This document shows, one piece after another, positions 537 through 15,961 of a stretch of 64,000 bases of DNA (positions are counted from its first letter, which is position 1; each line of letters opens with the position of its first letter). The translations under genes were made by a program, and so were the position numbers. The stretch comes from Cylindrospermum sp. NIES-4074. Its GTDB lineage: Bacteria; Cyanobacteriota; Cyanobacteriia; Cyanobacteriales; Nostocaceae. Location of the stretch: positions 4,241,677 to 4,305,676 of the forward strand of contig AP018269.1 in NCBI GenBank assembly GCA_003994795.1, given 5' to 3'. The notes under the pieces were generated by a model. That model was given only the letters and a program-made list of their open reading frames with translations. It did no database searches and was not told the origin of the DNA.

Positions 537-890
537 CTACTTGCCTAAAATAGAGCCTTTCAAAGCTTCAACGTTAGCCATTGCAGCGGCTGCATCGGCG
601 GCTGATACACCACTAGCGGTCATTGCAGCATTCAAGTGTTTGACGATAGTATCAAACTGAGCTTGTTGTAGCTTCATGCCTGTGTGGGTTTTTTCCATTG
701 GACGACCAGCGTATTGCTTTGGCCCTTCAAGGATTTGAGAGAAGAAAGCAATTTGATGAGCGCGTTGTTTTGCCATATCTGTTTTAGCAAAGTAACCGCT
801 GACGGAGCTATCTGCCAGAACACTCTTGTGGAAAGCATCAACAACTTTCTCAACTGTGGCTTGTCCGCCGATTTTGTCGTATAAACCCAT
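537..890 (-). CDS. glbN: Cyanoglobin, group I truncated haemoglobin
   Basis: 117-residue 2/2 haemoglobin that binds haem and O2. The protein opens MGLYDKIGGQATVEKVVDAF and contains the family segment DMAKQRAHQIAFFSQ (about 38-52). His69 in KTHTGMKLQQ matches the proximal F8 histidine; His45 lies at the E10 position; the B10 position appears to be His21 rather than the more usual Tyr. Length fits group I globins, which are about 115-125 residues. It sits between nifU and nifH on the same strand, the arrangement known for Nostoc commune glbN, where the protein is made under nitrogen-fixing, low-O2 conditions. A role in O2 handling near nitrogenase is inference. Confidence 0.95.
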   Translation of the reverse strand: MGLYDKIGGQATVEKVVDAFHKSVLADSSVSGYFAKTDMAKQRAHQIAFFSQILEGPKQYAGRPMEKTHTGMKLQQAQFDTIVKHLNAAMTASGVSAADAAAAMANVEALKGSILGK

Positions 891-3715: not shown

Positions 3716-3838
3716 TTTTTGGGGATTAGGGATTGGTAATTGGTAATTGGGAAAAAGGTAATAGCTAATTGCTAATTGGTAATTATTCAGACTATTACCC
3801 ATTACCCATTACCCATTACCCATTACCCATTACCCATT
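3716..3838. repeat. Tandem CATTACC heptamers between nifB and fdxN
   Basis: The gap has imperfect TTGGTAATTGG-type repeats followed by about six perfect copies of the heptamer CATTACC (about 3793-3838). The array overlaps the nifB 3' end: the final Asn-Gly and the TAA stop of NifB lie inside it. Confidence 0.85.
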
Positions 3839-5365
3839 AGCTGTTACGTATTGCTCGTAAAACTCTAAAGCAACCTTTTCAATTACGTCGTAAGCTTCAA
3901 TGGTTTGGATGCCAGCTTCTTGCAGTTTTTCTTTGGGACAGTTACCAATCTTGGAAACCAAAACTGCTTTACAATCGGCGATCGCTTTCATTGTATGTTC
4001 AAAAGTGGCTTCTTCACTGTATCCACCTTGACAATACTGGTCAATCTTGCGATGACTGACAAAGCGTGCTTCGTTACCATCCACTTCATAAATCTGGAAT
4101 TCTTTCGCATGACCGAAGTGTTGGTTAACCAACCCACCACCCTTGGTTGCTACTGCAACTAGGATTTTGGGGTTGTTTTGTAGAGACGTTGCATGCAACG
4201 TCTCTACAGCAGATGCTTTCGCCTTTTCTTTGGCTGCTTTGATTTCTTCTTTGAACTTCTCGATGCCTTCGTGAACTGTAGCGCGTTGTTCTAGGTCATA
4301 TTCTGGAGTCATATCCAAGAATTTATCTTTGGTAAATTCCTGGCTGCGGTCTTCTCCCAATAATCCTACCGCATCGGCTCGGCACTGGCGACAGTGGCGC
4401 ATCATCTTCATGTTACCAGCGCAATTGTCTTGTACTTCCTTCAACTCTTTGGGTGAAGGCCCGCGCTGACCTGTTAAACCGAAGTGTGTGCCGTGTTCAG
4501 GTGCAGAAATCAGCGGCATGATATTGTGCAGAAAAGCACCATGCTCACGAATGTATTTATTGACTTCCACCAAGTGCTGGTCATTAATTCCCGGAATCAT
4601 CACCGAGTTAACTTTGCACAAGATATCAGCTTCTTTCAGGGCTTGCAATCCTTCCATCTGCTTTTCGAGCAGAATCTTAGCCCCTTCAATGCCTCTGTAA
4701 CGCTTGCGTTTGTAGTGAACCCAAGAATAAATCTGTGCGCCGATTTCTGGGTCTATGGTGTTAAAGGTGATAGTAACGTGGTCTATATTTAATTGTTTGA
4801 TGCGATCGATGTATTCGGTCAGCATCAAACCATTGGTTGATAAGCAAAGCTTAATATCTGGTGCTTTGTCTGCAATCAACTCAAAGGTGCGGAAAGTTTT
4901 TTCTGGATTCGCTAAAGGATCACCAGGGCCAGCAATTCCCAAAACTGTCATTTGAGGAATTTTGCCTGCAATCACCAAAGCCTTGTGTGCTGCTTCTTCT
5001 GGTGTTAGCAATTCGCTAACTACCCCAGGGCGACTTTCGTTAGCGCAGTCATATTTGCGGTTACAATAGTTGCATTGAATGTTACAAGCTGGTGCAACTG
5101 CAACGTGCATCCGGGCGTAGTGATGGTGAGCGTCTTCACTATAGCAAGGATGTTGGGCGATGCGTTGTTTAAGCTTTTCGTCCATTTCCACGGTGGCGCT
5201 AGTGTTGCTGTCGCAACCGCAACCACCGGATTTTGCTTGGGTTACTATTGGTTCCTGTTGGTCGGAAGTGAGGAGTCCTGTAGCCGGTAGTGTCATTGAA
5301 TTTCGCAAAAGGTCGGTGGGTTGGCTGCCACTGTGAGAGATGCCGTTGCTATTCACTATGCCCAT
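3830..5365 (-). CDS. nifB: Nitrogenase cofactor biosynthesis radical SAM protein NifB
   Basis: Makes NifB-co, the [8Fe-9S-C] precursor of FeMo-co. The 511-residue protein has the radical-SAM motif CNIQCNYC (Cys94, Cys98, Cys101) followed by the family's [13 protein letters not shown], and a C-terminal NifX/NafY-like domain from about residue 395 ([15 protein letters not shown]...). The linker between the domains contains VETLHATSL, encoded by a 28-bp perfect palindrome at 4180-4207 that occurs elsewhere in Nostocales as a dispersed repeat. The ATG at 5365 gives [13 protein letters not shown]; the first ~65 residues are family-variable, so the start is moderately sure. First gene of the operon, with a long upstream region. 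Confidence 0.97.
4180..4207. repeat. 28-bp perfect palindrome inserted in frame in nifB
   Basis: GTAGAGACGTTGCA followed directly by its exact reverse complement. It adds nine in-frame codons (VETLHATSL) to the linker between the radical-SAM and NifX-like domains of NifB. The sequence is a recognisable small dispersed repeat of filamentous cyanobacteria (known family, not searched here). Confidence 0.9.
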
Positions 5366-5641
5366 GAATTGAAGTCGCGCCTTATACTCACATAGCCCAC
5401 AGGTAGTTACCCTGGAGCCATATCGTAGACGCCCGTGAAGGCGGCTGATCGCAGGGTAGGGTAGGCTAAAAAATTACACTCTTGAGGTTCGGCTGGTGTG
5501 TCAACGTTTGCTTCTTGGGTAGAATTTGGACGTACAACCGCGACTTCTATTCACTTCAGGCATGGTGCTATCTCATCCCTCCACTCACTTTTCGCTTTGA
5601 TTTTTTGGATTAGAGCGTTGAGTGATTGGCGATATAAGATT
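5366..5641 (-). promoter_or_regulatory. nifB leader / 5' untranslated region
   Basis: About 275 bp between the nifB start and the conserved upstream module. No convincing gene is seen; the short frames here have no recognisable protein. The part next to nifB (about 5395-5465) has repeat-like GC-rich sequence. A long nifB leader is likely; the transcription start cannot be placed. Confidence 0.4.
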
Positions 5642-5914
5642 TATATCAGCCCGCCATTGCTAGGCAAATTAGCTATCTGGGATAGAATTTATTGGATTTA
5701 TTAAGTTTGTACTCAAAACCATCAAACCCCGATGTGGCAAGCATTACCAGAATTAAAAAATATTTTTTCAGGTAGGGGTTCTAGTGTTTTCTGATTGGGG
5801 TACGAGTATTTATGGAATGGGGTTCAGGATTTCTTTGTACTCATTTGAAATCCAATTCCATCAAGGGATTGAGCATTATTTTGGCGGTTTTTCGTTAACA
5901 CAAATCTGTACTCA
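5642..5914 (-). promoter_or_regulatory. Conserved nif upstream module (nifB copy)
   Basis: Read on the plus strand it has three exact TGTACTCA boxes at 5708-5715, 5836-5843 and 5907-5914, a TATATCAG motif at 5642, a TTTATTGGA...ATTAAG segment just left of the first box, and three GGGGT-type motifs between the first and second boxes (about 5775, 5797 and 5819), with GAGTATTTAT between the last two. The same elements, in the same order and at nearly the same spacing, recur in inverted orientation upstream of nifP (12430-12695). Relative to the downstream nif gene both copies point the same way. Probably the activator-binding region for nifB; CnfR/PatB is the candidate by inference. Confidence 0.7.
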
Positions 5915-6269: not shown

Positions 6270-6440
6270 CAGAAACCCCTCTCACGGCTCTACAAGTCCT
6301 ACAAAACTAGGGAAACATCCAATCAGTCAAGCAGTGTTAGTTAATGGCGCTGCGGGTGCTGTGGGCATTTTTGCGGTGCAAATTGCTAAGGCTTTGGGGG
6401 CGGAGGTGACGGGATTTTATAGTACCAAAAACAACCAGCA
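6270..6440 (+). pseudogene. Fragment of a zinc-type quinone oxidoreductase gene
   Basis: A ~160-bp stretch is nearly identical to the internal part of the complete oxidoreductase gene at about 7800-7960: both encode QAVLVNGAAG/QRVLVNGAAG, then VGIFAVQIAKALGAEVTG and STKN. Only this NAD(P)-binding Rossmann segment is present, preceded by a degraded match to the CTCACGGCTCTA...GGGAAA..TTCAATCAG region. The open frame over it runs into unrelated sequence before a stop at about 6513. A broken duplicate, not a functional gene. Confidence 0.8.
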
Positions 6441-7146: not shown

Positions 7147-7335
7147 ATGAGCTATCACGATATTATTACAATTGAGCCAGATAAGCGGGGTGGTAAACCT
7201 TGTATTCGCCGGATGAGAATCACCGTGTATGATGTTCTGGGCTGGTTGGCAGCAGGTATGTCTCATCCAGAGATATTAGAGGATTTTCCTGAATTAACAG
7301 AAGAGGACATTAGGGCTTGTCTAGAATTGTACTAA
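7147..7335 (+). CDS. DUF433 family antitoxin-like protein, short
   Basis: 62-residue DUF433 protein, a winged-helix-like domain usually found as the antitoxin beside a DUF5615 PIN-like toxin. Visible motifs: IITIEPDKRGGKPCIRRMRITVYDVLGWLAAGMS and the ILEDFPELTEEDIRACL ending. Family members usually run another 10-15 residues past this point; here the frame stops after CLELY and no toxin gene follows, so it may be a truncated orphan. Confidence 0.75.
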   Translation: MSYHDIITIEPDKRGGKPCIRRMRITVYDVLGWLAAGMSHPEILEDFPELTEEDIRACLELY

Positions 7336-7421
7336 TGCTTGAAAAAACTGGATCAAATATTCTAAATATTTAATATTATGGTGCATTTTTTCGTAAAACA
7401 GGGTAGCAAGGAGGAACGGTG

Positions 7422-8369
7422 ATGAAAGCAATTGTTATCCGGCGGTATGGAACTCCTGAGGTGTTGCAGTATGAGGATGTGGAGTTACCAAAAATTAAGC
7501 CTAACCAGTTACTTATCAAGGTTTACGCTAGTTGTGTTAACCCCATTGATTGGAAAATCCGCAAAGGGATGTTGAGCTTAATTACAGGTAACAAATTCCC
7601 GATGGTTTTGGGGCTGGATGTGGCTGGTGAAGTGGTGGAGGTTGGCTCCCAAGTAACGCGCTTTCAGCCTGGAGCCGCTATTTATGGCAGCACTGACTTA
7701 TTTGGGGGGGCTTATGCAGAATATGCTGCTGTTTCTGAAAAGTGGGCGGCTCCCAAACCAATAAACATGACATATCAAGAAGCTGCATCTTTACCAGGAA
7801 GCGCTCTCACGGCTCTAAAAGCCCTGCGAGGTGAGGGAAATATTCAATCAGGTCAAAGGGTGTTAGTTAATGGCGCTGCGGGTGGTGTGGGCATTTTTGC
7901 GGTGCAAATTGCCAAGGCTTTGGGGGCAGAGGTGACGGGTGTTTGCAGTACCAAAAACTTGGATTTTGTTAAATCTCTGGGTGCAGACCGTGTGATTGAC
8001 TATACGCAACAAGATTTCACCCAAGATCCGGTGCAATATGACATTATTTTAGATGCGGTTGGTAAACGCTCTTTTTCTGATTGCAAAAGAGTTCTGAAGC
8101 CGAATGGGGTTTATATCACCACATTACCTACACTAGAAAACATGGTGCAGATTGCTTTAACGGCGTTAATTCCTGGTCAAAAAGCTAAATTTGTCTTGAA
8201 TAATCCCACAAATCAGGATTTGGTTTATGTGAAAGAGTTGATTGAGGCAGGCAAAATCCGCACAGTGATCGATCGCACCTATCCTTTAAACGAACTAGCT
8301 GCTGCTCATGCTTACAGTGAAACCGAGCGTGCAGTGGGAAAAATTGCGATCGCCATTAATTCCGTTTGA
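7422..8369 (+). CDS. NAD(P)-dependent quinone oxidoreductase / zinc-type alcohol dehydrogenase-like
   Basis: Medium-chain dehydrogenase/reductase of 315 residues. A clear ribosome site (AAGGAGG about 8 bp upstream) favours the ATG at 7422 over the GTG one codon earlier. The N-terminal GroES-like domain (MKAIVIRRYGTPEVLQYEDV) is followed by the Rossmann motif VLVNGAAGGVGIFAVQIAKALGA and then STKNLDFVKSLGADRVIDY. It lacks the usual structural-zinc cysteine cluster, as in quinone-reductase/crotonase-type members. Substrate unknown. A partial copy of its Rossmann region lies at 6270-6440. Confidence 0.9.
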   Translation: MKAIVIRRYGTPEVLQYEDVELPKIKPNQLLIKVYASCVNPIDWKIRKGMLSLITGNKFPMVLGLDVAGEVVEVGSQVTRFQPGAAIYGSTDLFGGAYAEYAAVSEKWAAPKPINMTYQEAASLPGSALTALKALRGEGNIQSGQRVLVNGAAGGVGIFAVQIAKALGAEVTGVCSTKNLDFVKSLGADRVIDYTQQDFTQDPVQYDIILDAVGKRSFSDCKRVLKPNGVYITTLPTLENMVQIALTALIPGQKAKFVLNNPTNQDLVYVKELIEAGKIRTVIDRTYPLNELAAAHAYSETERAVGKIAIAINSV

Positions 8370-8386
8370 TTTGGCGGTATCTTCGG

Positions 8387-8950
8387 TTATTCAGTTAGCC
8401 AACTGAACAATTGACCAACGGTGAGGCTGAATGACTCAGCAAAAGATGGCACAGGTAAGCGATCGCTCTCTATTTCAAATAGTGTAAGACGTTGATCGGC
8501 ATGATAGACAAAGACTAATTTCTCTTCGGGGTCAATCAACCAACCCATCTGAGTGCCGTGAACAAGGCAGTGAAGGATGTTGCGAACGACTTTGGTTTGG
8601 CTTTGGTCGGGGGAAAGGATTTCAATTGTCCAGTCAGGTGCGATCGCAAAAGTGTTAGCAACTTCGCCGTTTTCGTCGCGGGGGATGCGTTCCCAGGTGA
8701 AGACTGCAACATCAGGAACAATCGATCTGCCTCCAAAGGTACAGCGCAGTTCAGAGTATGCACGGGCAATACGCTGGGGTTTAAGTGCTAGGTTGATATC
8801 AGCACCGAGGTCAAGTTGAACCGTGCTGTGTTTTCCTTGGGGCATAGGTTTCTGGATAATCTGACCGTCAATGAATTCGCTAGCAGGTTTGGTTTCCGGC
8901 AACTTGAGAAATTCATCGAGAGTCAAGAGTTTGGTAGGGGTTTGAACCAT
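8387..8950 (-). CDS. Uma2 family endonuclease-like protein
   Basis: 187-residue Uma2 (DUF820) protein on the minus strand, convergent with the oxidoreductase. Signatures: LTLDEFLKLPETKPASEFIDGQIIQKPMPQGKHS, IVPDVAVFTWERIP and IAPDWTIEILSPDQSQTKVVRNILHCL. The start ATG at 8950 gives MVQTPTKLLTLDEF, the normal N-terminus of the family. PD-(D/E)XK nuclease fold; biological role unknown. Confidence 0.9.
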   Translation of the reverse strand: MVQTPTKLLTLDEFLKLPETKPASEFIDGQIIQKPMPQGKHSTVQLDLGADINLALKPQRIARAYSELRCTFGGRSIVPDVAVFTWERIPRDENGEVANTFAIAPDWTIEILSPDQSQTKVVRNILHCLVHGTQMGWLIDPEEKLVFVYHADQRLTLFEIESDRLPVPSFAESFSLTVGQLFSWLTE

Positions 8951-9172
8951 TACCGTTTAGAGTGGGTGGGTTGTAAGTATTGTATCGTTTTCTAGTTGTG
9001 GAAGTGCCTTGGTGTAACCCGTCGTAGACATCGGTTTTAGCTAAACCAGCAGATGTTTTGCGACTACGCACGCTAGAGGAGGAGTGCGATCGCGTAGCGT
9101 GCTGGAGGCGATCGCATAGCGTACCGGAGGTAATCGCCATTACCACTTAATTGAGCAACTAGATTATTCTCG
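8951..9172. repeat. HIP1-rich intergenic repeats
   Basis: Contains near-duplicate units GCGATCGCGTAGCGTGC and GCGATCGCATAGCGTAC (about 9086-9125), a common interspersed motif of Nostocales built on the HIP1 octamer. No gene seen. Confidence 0.5.
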
Positions 9173-9868: not shown

Positions 9869-10198
9869 CTAAACTTCATCTTCTAAATCCTCCACAGTCA
9901 TGGGAGCTTGGGCAGTATGGCGAACGTATAAAACATATACCATCATGTCTCGAATCGTAAACAGCACTCGGTAGACATTCTTAGATTTGCCATACAGCAG
10001 TTGGCGGACTTCTTCAGGAAAAATATCGTGTTCAACCGCTAAAACACAACGGTGAGGTTTTTCTTGCAAAGTGGCGATTGCATTCATCAATCCTCGAAAC
10101 CAGCGATCGGCAAATTCAGGATTACGCTCTCGATACCAGCGATAAGCTTGCTCAATCTGTTTTTCAGCAATTGGGGTAATCTCAACCTTCCATGTCAT
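9869..10198 (-). CDS. RelE/ParE-type toxin
   Basis: 109-residue protein from the ATG at 10198 (MTWKVEITPIAEKQIEQAYRWY), a start that overlaps the upstream antitoxin gene by 17 bp. ParE/RelE-fold features: the basic amphipathic N-terminal helices (QIEQAYRWYRERNPEFADRWF), VRQLLYGKSKNVYRVLFTI and a C-terminal YVLYVRH strand. Likely an mRNA interferase or gyrase poison paired with the gene at 10182-10445. Length is normal and no damage is seen, so this module may be active. Confidence 0.85.
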   Translation of the reverse strand: MTWKVEITPIAEKQIEQAYRWYRERNPEFADRWFRGLMNAIATLQEKPHRCVLAVEHDIFPEEVRQLLYGKSKNVYRVLFTIRDMMVYVLYVRHTAQAPMTVEDLEDEV

Positions 10199-12429: not shown

Positions 12430-12695
12430 TGAGTACAGCTTAATATATCGCAAAACATCTAGCCTAAATCGCTGAAAAGTCCAAAAAGCAAAGGCTTTGT
12501 GTTGAGTACAAAAATTCTGAAACCCCTACCCAATAAATACTAGTACCCCTATTTTTAAAAGCTAGTACCCCTACCCCAAGGCAAATTTGAAATATGCCTG
12601 GACTAAGGATTTTAGGTAGTTGAGTACAACCTTAATTATTCCAATAAATCCAATCGGCATCTGATGTACTGTCCCTTTAGAGTCGCCTGATATAA
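12430..12695 (+). promoter_or_regulatory. Conserved nif upstream module (nifP copy)
   Basis: On the plus strand it has exact TGAGTACA boxes at 12430-12437, 12503-12510 and 12621-12628; AACCCCTACCC, then TAAATACTAGTACCCCTA and CTAGTACCCCTACCCC between the second and third box; CTTAATTATTCCAATAAA just after the third; and TGATATAA near 12688. This is the reverse complement of the block upstream of nifB (5642-5914), with box spacings of 73 and 118 bp here versus 71 and 128 bp there. The last box is 109 bp before the nifP ATG. Probably the activator site of the nifP operon. Confidence 0.7.
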
Positions 12696-12736
12696 GCATA
12701 AAAATAGCACATGGCTCTTTTAACCAGACAGTAACA

Positions 12737-13498
12737 ATGCAACAGTCTTTAGACAGTGACAGGAAAAACCAAACGGCAAAAATACAGGATTCTGCACCTA
12801 CCAGCCTGTGGAAAAATTTACTCTCTGGCGTTTTTTTTGAGCCATTGTTGAGCGATTTCTACATCATTTTTGAGCGCGATCCAGCAGCACGGAATTGGCT
12901 AGAGGTGGTGTTTTGCTACCCAGGATTTCATGCACTATGTTTGCATCGTCTCGCTCACTGGTTACACCTGCGGGGAGTGAGTTTTATTCCCCGGTTAATT
13001 TCTCACTTGGGGCGGTTTTTGACAGGAATTGAAATTCACCCAGGTGCAGAGATTGGTAAAGGTGTGTTTATCGACCACGGAATGGGGGTTGTGATTGGGG
13101 AAACTGCCATTGTGGGGGACTATACACTGATTTACCAAGGCGTTACCCTTGGGGGAACTGGGAAAGAAAGCGGTAAACGTCATCCCACTTTAGGCAAAAA
13201 TGTGGTGCTGGGTGCGGGTGCGAAGGTTTTGGGTAATCTGCAAATTGGCGATCGCGTCCGTATTGGTGCAGGTTCCATTGTCTTGCGGGATGTTCCTTCC
13301 GATTCTACCGTCGTTGGCGTTCCCGGCCGCATCATTTCCCACAAGCAAAGCGATTGTCCCCTGGAACATGGCAAAATACCCGATTTGGAAGCCAATGTGA
13401 TTCGTTCTTTGCACTCCCGCATTGAGCAACTAGAACAACAACTGCAAACCCTCATCAATCACCAAAAGGATCTAGAACTTTTGACAAAGGATCGTTGA
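12737..13498 (+). CDS. nifP: Serine O-acetyltransferase NifP (CysE-like)
   Basis: Acetylates L-serine to O-acetylserine, the precursor for cysteine that feeds NifS. The 253-residue protein has the hexapeptide-repeat left-handed beta-helix with [20 protein letters not shown] (catalytic His of the DHG motif), [21 protein letters not shown] and [23 protein letters not shown] short basic N-terminal extension precedes the enzyme. It heads a plus-strand series to nifT and has the same upstream module as nifB, which supports the nif-specific nifP name over housekeeping cysE. Confidence 0.93.
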
Positions 13499-14827: not shown

Positions 14828-15961
14828 ATGAATGAAATCATAATTAACGACACTACATTACGTGATGGCGAACAAGCAGCAGGTGTTGCTTTTAACTTAG
14901 AAGAAAAAGTAGCGATCGCCAAATTTCTGGATGCCATTGGCATTCATGAATTAGAAGTCGGTATTCCGGCGATGGGTGAAGAAGAAAAATACGCCATCAT
15001 GGCTATTTCTGACTTGGGTTTACAAGCCAAACTCTTAACTTGGAACCGCGCCGTGATGTCAGATATTAAGGCTTCAATTGCCTGCGGTCTTCAGCGAGTA
15101 CATATTGCTATTCCTGTTTCTGGTATCCAAATCGCTGCTAAATTTCATGGCCAATGTCAGGTAAGTTTGCAAAAACTTAAAGACTGCATTAACTTCGCTC
15201 TTGATAATGGTCTTTGGGTAGCTGTAGGGGGAGAAGATTCTTCTAGAGCAGATGAAAGTTTTCTATTAGATGTAGCGTTGTCTGCTCAAGAATGGGGTGC
15301 ATCAAGATTTCGCTTTTGCGATACAGTGGGAGTTCTTGATCCTTTCAGCACCCTCACAAAAGTCAAGCGATTGGTATCAGCTTTATCAATTCCTTTAGAG
15401 ATTCACACCCATAATGATTTTGGTTTAGCAACTGCTAACGCTCTTGCTGGTATTAAAGGTGGAGCTTCATCTGTAAATACTACCGTCAATGGGTTAGGTG
15501 AAAGAGCCGGAAATGCAGCTTTAGAAGAAGTTGTGATGGCTATTAAGCGCATTTACGGCATTGATTTAGGTATTGATACACGCCACTTGCTAGAACTGTC
15601 TCAATTAGTCGCTGCGGCATCTGGTGCTAACGTGCCACCTTGGAAGGCAATTGTTGGCGAAAATACCTTTGCTCATGAATCTGGTATTCATGCTCATGGT
15701 GTACTGCAAAATCCTGATACTTACGAACCATTTGCACCAGAAGAAGTTGGTTGGGAACGGCGTTTAGTATTAGGTAAACATTCTGGACGGCATTTAATTT
15801 CTAATTTGCTAGCACAACATGGCATCTTTTTAAATTCAGAAGAAACCCAGTCTGTGTTAGATGCAGTACGCCATCAGTCGGTATTGAAAAAACGCAGTCT
15901 CACTACAGAAGAACTGTTAAATTTAGTCAGAGAACAGAGGTATTCTCATGCAACGCGATGA
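14828..15961 (+). CDS. nifV: Homocitrate synthase NifV
   Basis: Condenses acetyl-CoA and 2-oxoglutarate to homocitrate, the organic ligand of FeMo-co. The 377-residue protein has the N-terminal [17 protein letters not shown] motif (metal-binding Asp, catalytic Arg), [15 protein letters not shown] (the metal-binding HxH pair), [15 protein letters not shown] and the [19 protein letters not shown] lid. Length is typical of cyanobacterial NifV. nifZ starts inside its last codons. Confidence 0.96.

Follow-up and report, generated by a model that had tools for sequence, protein, structure and literature searches.

Paired regulatory modules upstream of nifB and nifP in Cylindrospermum sp. NIES-4074 are probable promoters for the nitrogenase activator CnfR

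Previously, CnfR was reported to be required for nifB expression, and three conserved cis elements upstream of nifB were thought to be its binding sites; removing the first or the second element halved nifB expression, and a quarter was left when two were lost (PMC8510180, available text). According to the same text, CnfR-dependent nifB promoters have an extended -10 and no -35 (PMC8510180). The available parts of two other papers state that CnfR activates both nifB and nifP in Leptolyngbya boryana, for which motifs I-IX are described (PMC5943405), and that a TGAGTATA motif and an extended -10 are common to nifB1 and nifB2 (PMC4284476). For other species, CnfR-dependent elements in front of nifB and nifP are in print, and the core of what follows is known. 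In the literature that we searched, the box and repeat sequences described below were not shown as nif motifs, and the spacing steps, the fixed -10 distance and the further targets were not met, although the original papers may hold parts of these. Unlike other diazotrophs, cyanobacteria have no NifA/sigma-54 logic, and the literature searched says little about the rules of DNA recognition by CnfR.

The window analyzed here, a stretch of 64,000 nucleotides, contains nifB (3830..5365, minus strand; TIGR01290, 661 bits with a cut-off of 344) and, on the opposite strand with ~7 kb of other genes between, a serine O-acetyltransferase gene (12737..13498, plus strand; TIGR01172 cysE, 248 bits, cut-off 211), which we call nifP from its position before nifV. 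The nifV gene (14828..15961, plus strand; TIGR02660, 545 bits, cut-off 463) is presumably in one transcription unit with nifP. Beyond nifU, the nif region also holds a short frame of 117 aa (537-890, minus strand) that we take to be globin-like. An oxidoreductase gene fragment appears by eye to be doubled between nifB and nifP, beside the intact gene (6316-6435, 7419-8369).

Each of the two nif genes is preceded by a module which, read on the strand of the gene, consists of box1, box2, three tandem repeats, box3, an AT-rich tail and an extended -10, in that order. The two modules are inverted, lie 6.5 kb apart, and each points at its own gene. On the minus strand upstream of nifB, with mean conservation taken from an alignment of 60 modules, these elements are box1 TGAGTACA (5907..5914; 1.88 bits), box2 TGAGTACA (5836..5843; 1.60 bits), repeat a AAATCCTGAACCCC (5819..5832; 0.83 bits, the weakest repeat), repeat b AAATACTCGTACCCC (5797..5811; 1.27 bits), repeat c AACACTAGAACCCC (5775..5788; 1.44 bits), box3 TGAGTACA (5708..5715; 1.89 bits) and, after box3, the AT-rich tail TTAATAAATCCAATAAA (5688..5704; 1.36 bits), while columns outside the named motifs reach 0.55 bits. 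The predicted extended -10, TGATATAAA, is at 5640..5648, with its TG 67 bp past the start of box3, and the predicted nifB leader is ~270 nt from the putative transcription start site. On the plus strand upstream of nifP, the corresponding elements are box1 TGAGTACA (12430..12437), box2 TGAGTACA (12503..12510), repeats a AAATTCTGAAACCCC (12512..12526), b AAATACTAGTACCCC (12535..12549) and c AAAAGCTAGTACCCC (12557..12571), box3 TGAGTACA (12621..12628), followed by the AT-rich tail TTAATTATTCCAATAAA (12632..12648), and a predicted extended -10 TGATATAAG (12688..12696), again with TG 67 bp past the box3 start; the putative start site gives a predicted leader of ~34 nt. The repeats have the consensus AAATACTnGTACCCC and are 22-23 bp apart, the spacings of their ACCCC being 22/22 bp in one copy and 23/22 bp in the other. 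Boxes and repeats all hold an (A/n)GTAC-like core.

These results agree in most respects with a sequence-only reading of the same DNA, which had described a shared three-box arrangement upstream of both genes. The exact TGTACTCA boxes that it named are present at 5708, 5836 and 5907 (+) and at 12430, 12503 and 12621 (-), their spacings in the gene direction are 71/128 bp (nifB) and 73/118 bp (nifP) as claimed, and both copies have the same orientation relative to their own nif gene. The three GGGGT motifs that it placed between two of the boxes sit between boxes 2 and 3 and form the 3' parts of the three tandem repeats, and its TTTATTGGA..ATTAAG segment does adjoin a box, which in the gene direction is box3 (1.36 bits per column in the 60-sequence alignment). 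The extent that it gave to the modules held in outline, and we corrected the limits to 5640-5914 (-) and 12430-12696 (+), best read on the nif coding strands. It had also proposed that the sequence between the motifs has diverged more, and we found 74/84 motif positions identical between the copies and 56/136 of the remainder, with motif limits that were set after the alignment had been viewed, which favours this contrast. What it had not seen is that its TATATCAG element is the -10, that GGGGT lies inside repeats spaced by 22 bp, and that the link to CnfR is already in print. On the nif strand, TATATCAG reads CTGATATA, which is part of the extended -10, TGATATAA, of which TATATCAG represents the other strand.

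The box word TGTACTCA occurs 7 times in the 64 kb of the window versus 1.51 expected, and none of 100 shuffles (0/100) reached 7; six of the seven copies belong to the two modules and one lies elsewhere. Genome-wide there are 245 copies versus 137 of the reversed word. The word was rejected as a search term on its own, since 245 copies make it non-diagnostic, and a whole-module profile was therefore used for the searches. Given the high genome-wide frequency of the box, we treat the module, not the box, as the unit.

Spacing within the module proved to be stepped. Among 109 full-length modules, box1 and box2 are 70-76 bp apart in 91 of the 97 measured and 80-84 bp apart in 5, and box2 and box3 are 114-120 bp apart in 40/96 and 124-129 bp apart in 52/96, with none at 121-123 bp; the length step of ~10 bp sits between repeat c and box3. 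As the spacing classes are ~10 bp apart, the sequences suggest that helical phase is kept across modules. An extended -10 with at least 7/8 matches was found in 151 of 169 modules versus ~8 in shuffles that keep base composition only, and in 135 of the 151 it lies at +66 to +70 from box3. By comparison with shuffles of the same kind, no enrichment of a -35 was seen, at least 4/6 matches to TTGACA occurring in 15/151 versus ~26. The promoter is of the activator-dependent type, as described for nifB1 and nifB2 in the available text of PMC8510180.

The sequence-only reading had proposed that the upstream regions of nifB and nifP in relatives be compared, and in that comparison the module was kept. 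Our locus sample was the best 80 of 559 nifB relatives, comprising 53 cyanobacterial and 27 proteobacterial loci, and hits were accepted at E <1e-3. A profile built from the window's two copies only detected a nifB-facing module in 47/53 cyanobacterial loci and a nifP-facing module in 21/23 loci in which nifP was found. With a refined profile these counts were 49/53 and 23/23; the loci used to build this profile and R1 were later counted again, and the window-only counts are therefore given alongside. No module was detected in the proteobacterial nifB loci with either the window-only (0/27) or the refined (0/27) profile. The cyanobacterial loci without a nifB-facing match were L047, in which 91 bases are available upstream, L053, in which the contig end cuts nifB, L039, with the nifB start unmatched, and L051, in which the match has E 0.0086. 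In loci without nifP the opposite module faces a different gene: orf86-nifV in L018 (nifV by TIGR02660), a Mo-nitro_C gene followed by nifE in L041 (PF06967, TIGR01283), the same pair, identified by likeness, in L049, and a small gene in L033.

In a tree of 67 modules, displayed without support values, heterocyst-type nifB and nifP copies form separate groups and the window's copies each fall with their own kind, which places the origin of the nifB/nifP pair before the heterocyst-type clade. In some other lineages of the same tree (L035, L037), both copies from a single genome cluster with each other. In a Rivularia MAG locus (L030), a phage-integrase-like gene (7685-9079, plus strand; PF00589, E 1.3e-4, below the curated cut-off) lies between the module at 7228-7457 and nifB at 10034, and could be an excision element in the nifB leader.

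We also compared the distribution of the module with that of CnfR. In locus L138, a 530-aa protein with an N-terminal Fer4 and a C-terminal HTH_3 domain adjoins the module and was taken for CnfR from its domains and its place beside cox genes (compare the available text of PMC5943405). The present genome encodes a CnfR (C1:3502364-3503947) that shares 65% identity with the query and in which both Fer4 and HTH_3 score above cut-off; a strict cysteine-pattern screen for CnfR returned nothing, and a looser listing recovered it. With a strong module defined by E <1e-8 and CnfR by at least 550 bits, the order sample of 120 genomes contained a strong module in 34, CnfR in 34 and both in 32, and all 32 genomes with NifB above 600 bits were among the 34 with a strong module. 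In the phylum sample of 292 genomes, all 54 genomes with a strong module had a CnfR match at E <1e-90, a level reached in 55/292 overall; the weak cases among the 54 are G056, in which CnfR is partial, and G185, in which it is 38% identical. Both samples (120 and 292 genomes) are subsets, with stricter filters and few scored candidates in the large ones, so that a missing match is not proof of absence.

NifD is diverged (676-691 bits) in eight genomes of the order sample, as is NifB where it was found; only G005 among them has full CnfR and a module below 0.001 (3.6e-9). Module traces at 0.004-0.009 were seen in G009, G038 and G080, and in the phylum sample the diverged-nif genomes G009, G034, G038 and G080 gave no module at 0.001. 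G103 carries a strong module (L183:4983-5135, minus strand; E 1.8e-13) with an extended -10, and our searches of it returned no CnfR, no NifB and only a weak NifD-like match; its module is perhaps the remnant of a nif region since lost. G056 has a strong module and only a C-terminal piece of CnfR. Conversely, G018 and G102 have full CnfR, with no module at 0.001 and no NifB match, and G028, with most of CnfR present (479 bits), has no module. The CnfR of G102 is 91% identical to that of a diazotroph. Altogether, the module appears to track the presence of the CnfR gene rather than nitrogenase, and CnfR and module are confined to the same clades, so that their co-occurrence is not independent genome by genome.

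Copies of the module also stand before other genes. This genome has three strong modules, those of nifB and nifP and one at C1:4154024-4154243 (E 4.5e-30), which is 87 kb away and 486 bp upstream of a string of six small genes encoding a 142-aa membrane protein, proteins of 87, 103 and 121 aa, a luciferase-like monooxygenase (PF00296) and a 124-aa protein. The module before the 142-aa gene was found in all six window-family genomes of the order sample. The 142-aa protein is related to a small membrane protein encoded before coxBA in L138 (36% over 131 positions, E 2e-26), a locus whose module stands between cnfR and cox; that of L139 precedes fdxB and cox. A search of the cnfR, fdxB and cox region of the present genome found no module. 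A fourth match, which is degenerate, is located 306 bp upstream of nifJ (E 0.0015), and five relatives have a nifJ-side match at 1.3e-5 to 0.003, with nifJ downstream in all six. Two matches with E 0.31 each, at C1:5729627 and C1:4099546, fall within or next to ordinary reading frames and have no boxes; they were dropped, as were the remaining weak own-genome matches (E at least 0.65), of which two sequences were looked at.

In relatives, modules were also found at cox, fdxB, the Mo-nitro_C/nifE side, cnfR, nifX and pntA. Short modules, consisting of the last repeat and box3, face genes for a nitrogenase-associated protein (TIGR01616, behind an HSDR_N gene), a NifX/NafY-type protein (PF16844), PntA and a cupin-like protein, and in G068, G099 and G012 they face cnfR itself; the match before a CBS-CP12 protein gene followed by cytochrome bd is longer. 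Among 104 module matches below 1e-3 in the hit-selected loci, 22 face no reference gene, and about half of these were later identified; loci L122-L201 were chosen because of their module matches and give no prevalence. Seven loci (L137, L140, L161, L170, L183, L186 and L187) have module matches outside these assignments. Weak module-like matches in L186 (4454-4646, minus strand), L187 (4413-4599, plus strand) and L189 lie 0.4-0.7 kb before long genes that, from a reading of their frames, appear primase-like, and these three genomes are without CnfR.

We consider it quite likely, judging from sequence comparisons, that each module combines an upstream activating array with a promoter for CnfR (PatB). 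CnfR is an Fe-S protein whose C-terminal part is an XRE-type helix-turn-helix. It may bind the TGAGTACA boxes together with the TACTnGTA-CCCC repeats, at a fixed helical phasing, and then recruit RNA polymerase to the extended -10, with its TG 67-68 bp past box3 and no good -35. The window's own inverted copies would serve nifB, followed by nifS, nifU and further genes, and nifP, followed by nifV, and one activator could thereby switch on both sides of the nif region together. In hand are a conserved anatomy and spacing, a promoter element, presence in step with CnfR and copies before other genes; from these we infer that CnfR is the binder, that it binds both boxes and repeats, and that it acts by recruitment. 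The guess of the sequence-only reading that this could be the binding architecture of CnfR (PatB) thus appears well placed, given conservation before nifB and nifP, tracking of the CnfR gene and the extended -10.

Part of this proposal could be shared with a different protein. CnfR might occupy one site class, either repeats or boxes, and a second regulator or sigma-factor-linked protein the other, as might be expected from the separate conservation of boxes and repeats, the existence of short versions with one repeat and box3, and a requirement of CnfR2 activation for further factors (PMC8510180, available text). In addition, the word GTAN8TAC occurs in 32/109 full modules with flanks versus 15.9 in shuffles that keep base composition only. 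The fixed register of box, repeat and -10 nevertheless suits one cooperating complex, both site types share the GTAC core, and no second regulator was found to track the module, CnfR alone having been tested; we therefore hold this division of labor to be possible and somewhat doubtful. That NtcA or another general nitrogen regulator binds the modules instead of CnfR is very unlikely. An NtcA ChIP signal reported for Anabaena 7120, several hundred bases ahead of nifB (PMC4284476, available text), and exact GTAN8TAC words upstream of box1 at nifP would fit it, whereas no exact GTAN8TAC lies within 300 bp of the nifB module, and only 32/109 modules have one. NtcA was rejected as the binder since GTAN8TAC is not conserved, and the module is missing from at least 66 of 120 order genomes without CnfR, although NtcA generally occurs in cyanobacteria.

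The similarity between the copies might also reflect a recent promoter duplication that carried the motifs along without selection, which the inverted placement 6.5 kb apart and the doubled oxidoreductase fragment between (seen by eye) could recall. We give this very little credence, as motifs (74/84) and spacers (56/136) differ sharply in identity, both copies occur in 21 to 23 of 23 nifP loci, and the tree separates nifB and nifP copies in heterocyst-type loci, even though the L035 and L037 pairs group by genome; a recent duplication was rejected because the spacers are too diverged and both copies are old. Least probable of all, to the point of being nearly negligible, is that the conserved stretch acts as RNA, such as a leader or riboswitch, rather than as DNA. 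Conserved, structured spacing and the long predicted nifB leader are compatible with an RNA; in both copies, however, the module precedes the predicted -10, at a distance from it that is fixed in 135/169 modules, and would thus not be transcribed from the predicted promoter.

Returning to CnfR as the probable activator, we see about an even chance that one rigid grammar (box1, box2, 22-bp repeats, box3, and a -10 at +67/68, with insertions of roughly whole turns only) defines a phylum-wide CnfR regulon well beyond nif, including terminal oxidases, transhydrogenase, a nif-specific ferredoxin, nifJ and cnfR, and that the six-gene string, derived from the cnfR-cox promoter region, is a new nitrogen-fixation accessory set. 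Once tested, such a grammar would allow CnfR targets to be predicted from sequence and nitrogenase accessory genes to be discovered, as well as the design of CnfR-driven promoters with which nif clusters could be moved from one cyanobacterium to another, a goal named in the available text of PMC5943405 and PMC8510180.

The closest described systems, as far as their available accounts go, are those of Anabaena variabilis and L. boryana. In A. variabilis, elements CS1-CS3 of nifB1 and nifB2 (PMC8510180, with an older alignment described in PMC4284476) resemble the arrangement here in that several elements lie upstream of nifB, and in both cases there is an extended -10 without a -35 and CnfR in the genome. 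TGAGTATA is among the A. variabilis elements, where TGAGTACA is found here. The likeness is one of description, and the distance stated for the CS elements to the start site differs; the module elements here lie ~40-275 bp above the predicted -10 and 323-549 bp above the nifB start codon, distances that leave the match to CS1-CS3 less than certain. The nifP gene of A. variabilis is described as ~11 kb from the nif1 cluster. L. boryana, according to the available description, shares with the present locus divergent nifB and nifP genes under CnfR control and several conserved motifs; there the two genes share one intergenic region, whereas here 7 kb of other genes lie between them. The L. boryana-type loci that we examined carry two inverted modules, and motifs I-IX of L. 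boryana may be both modules together.
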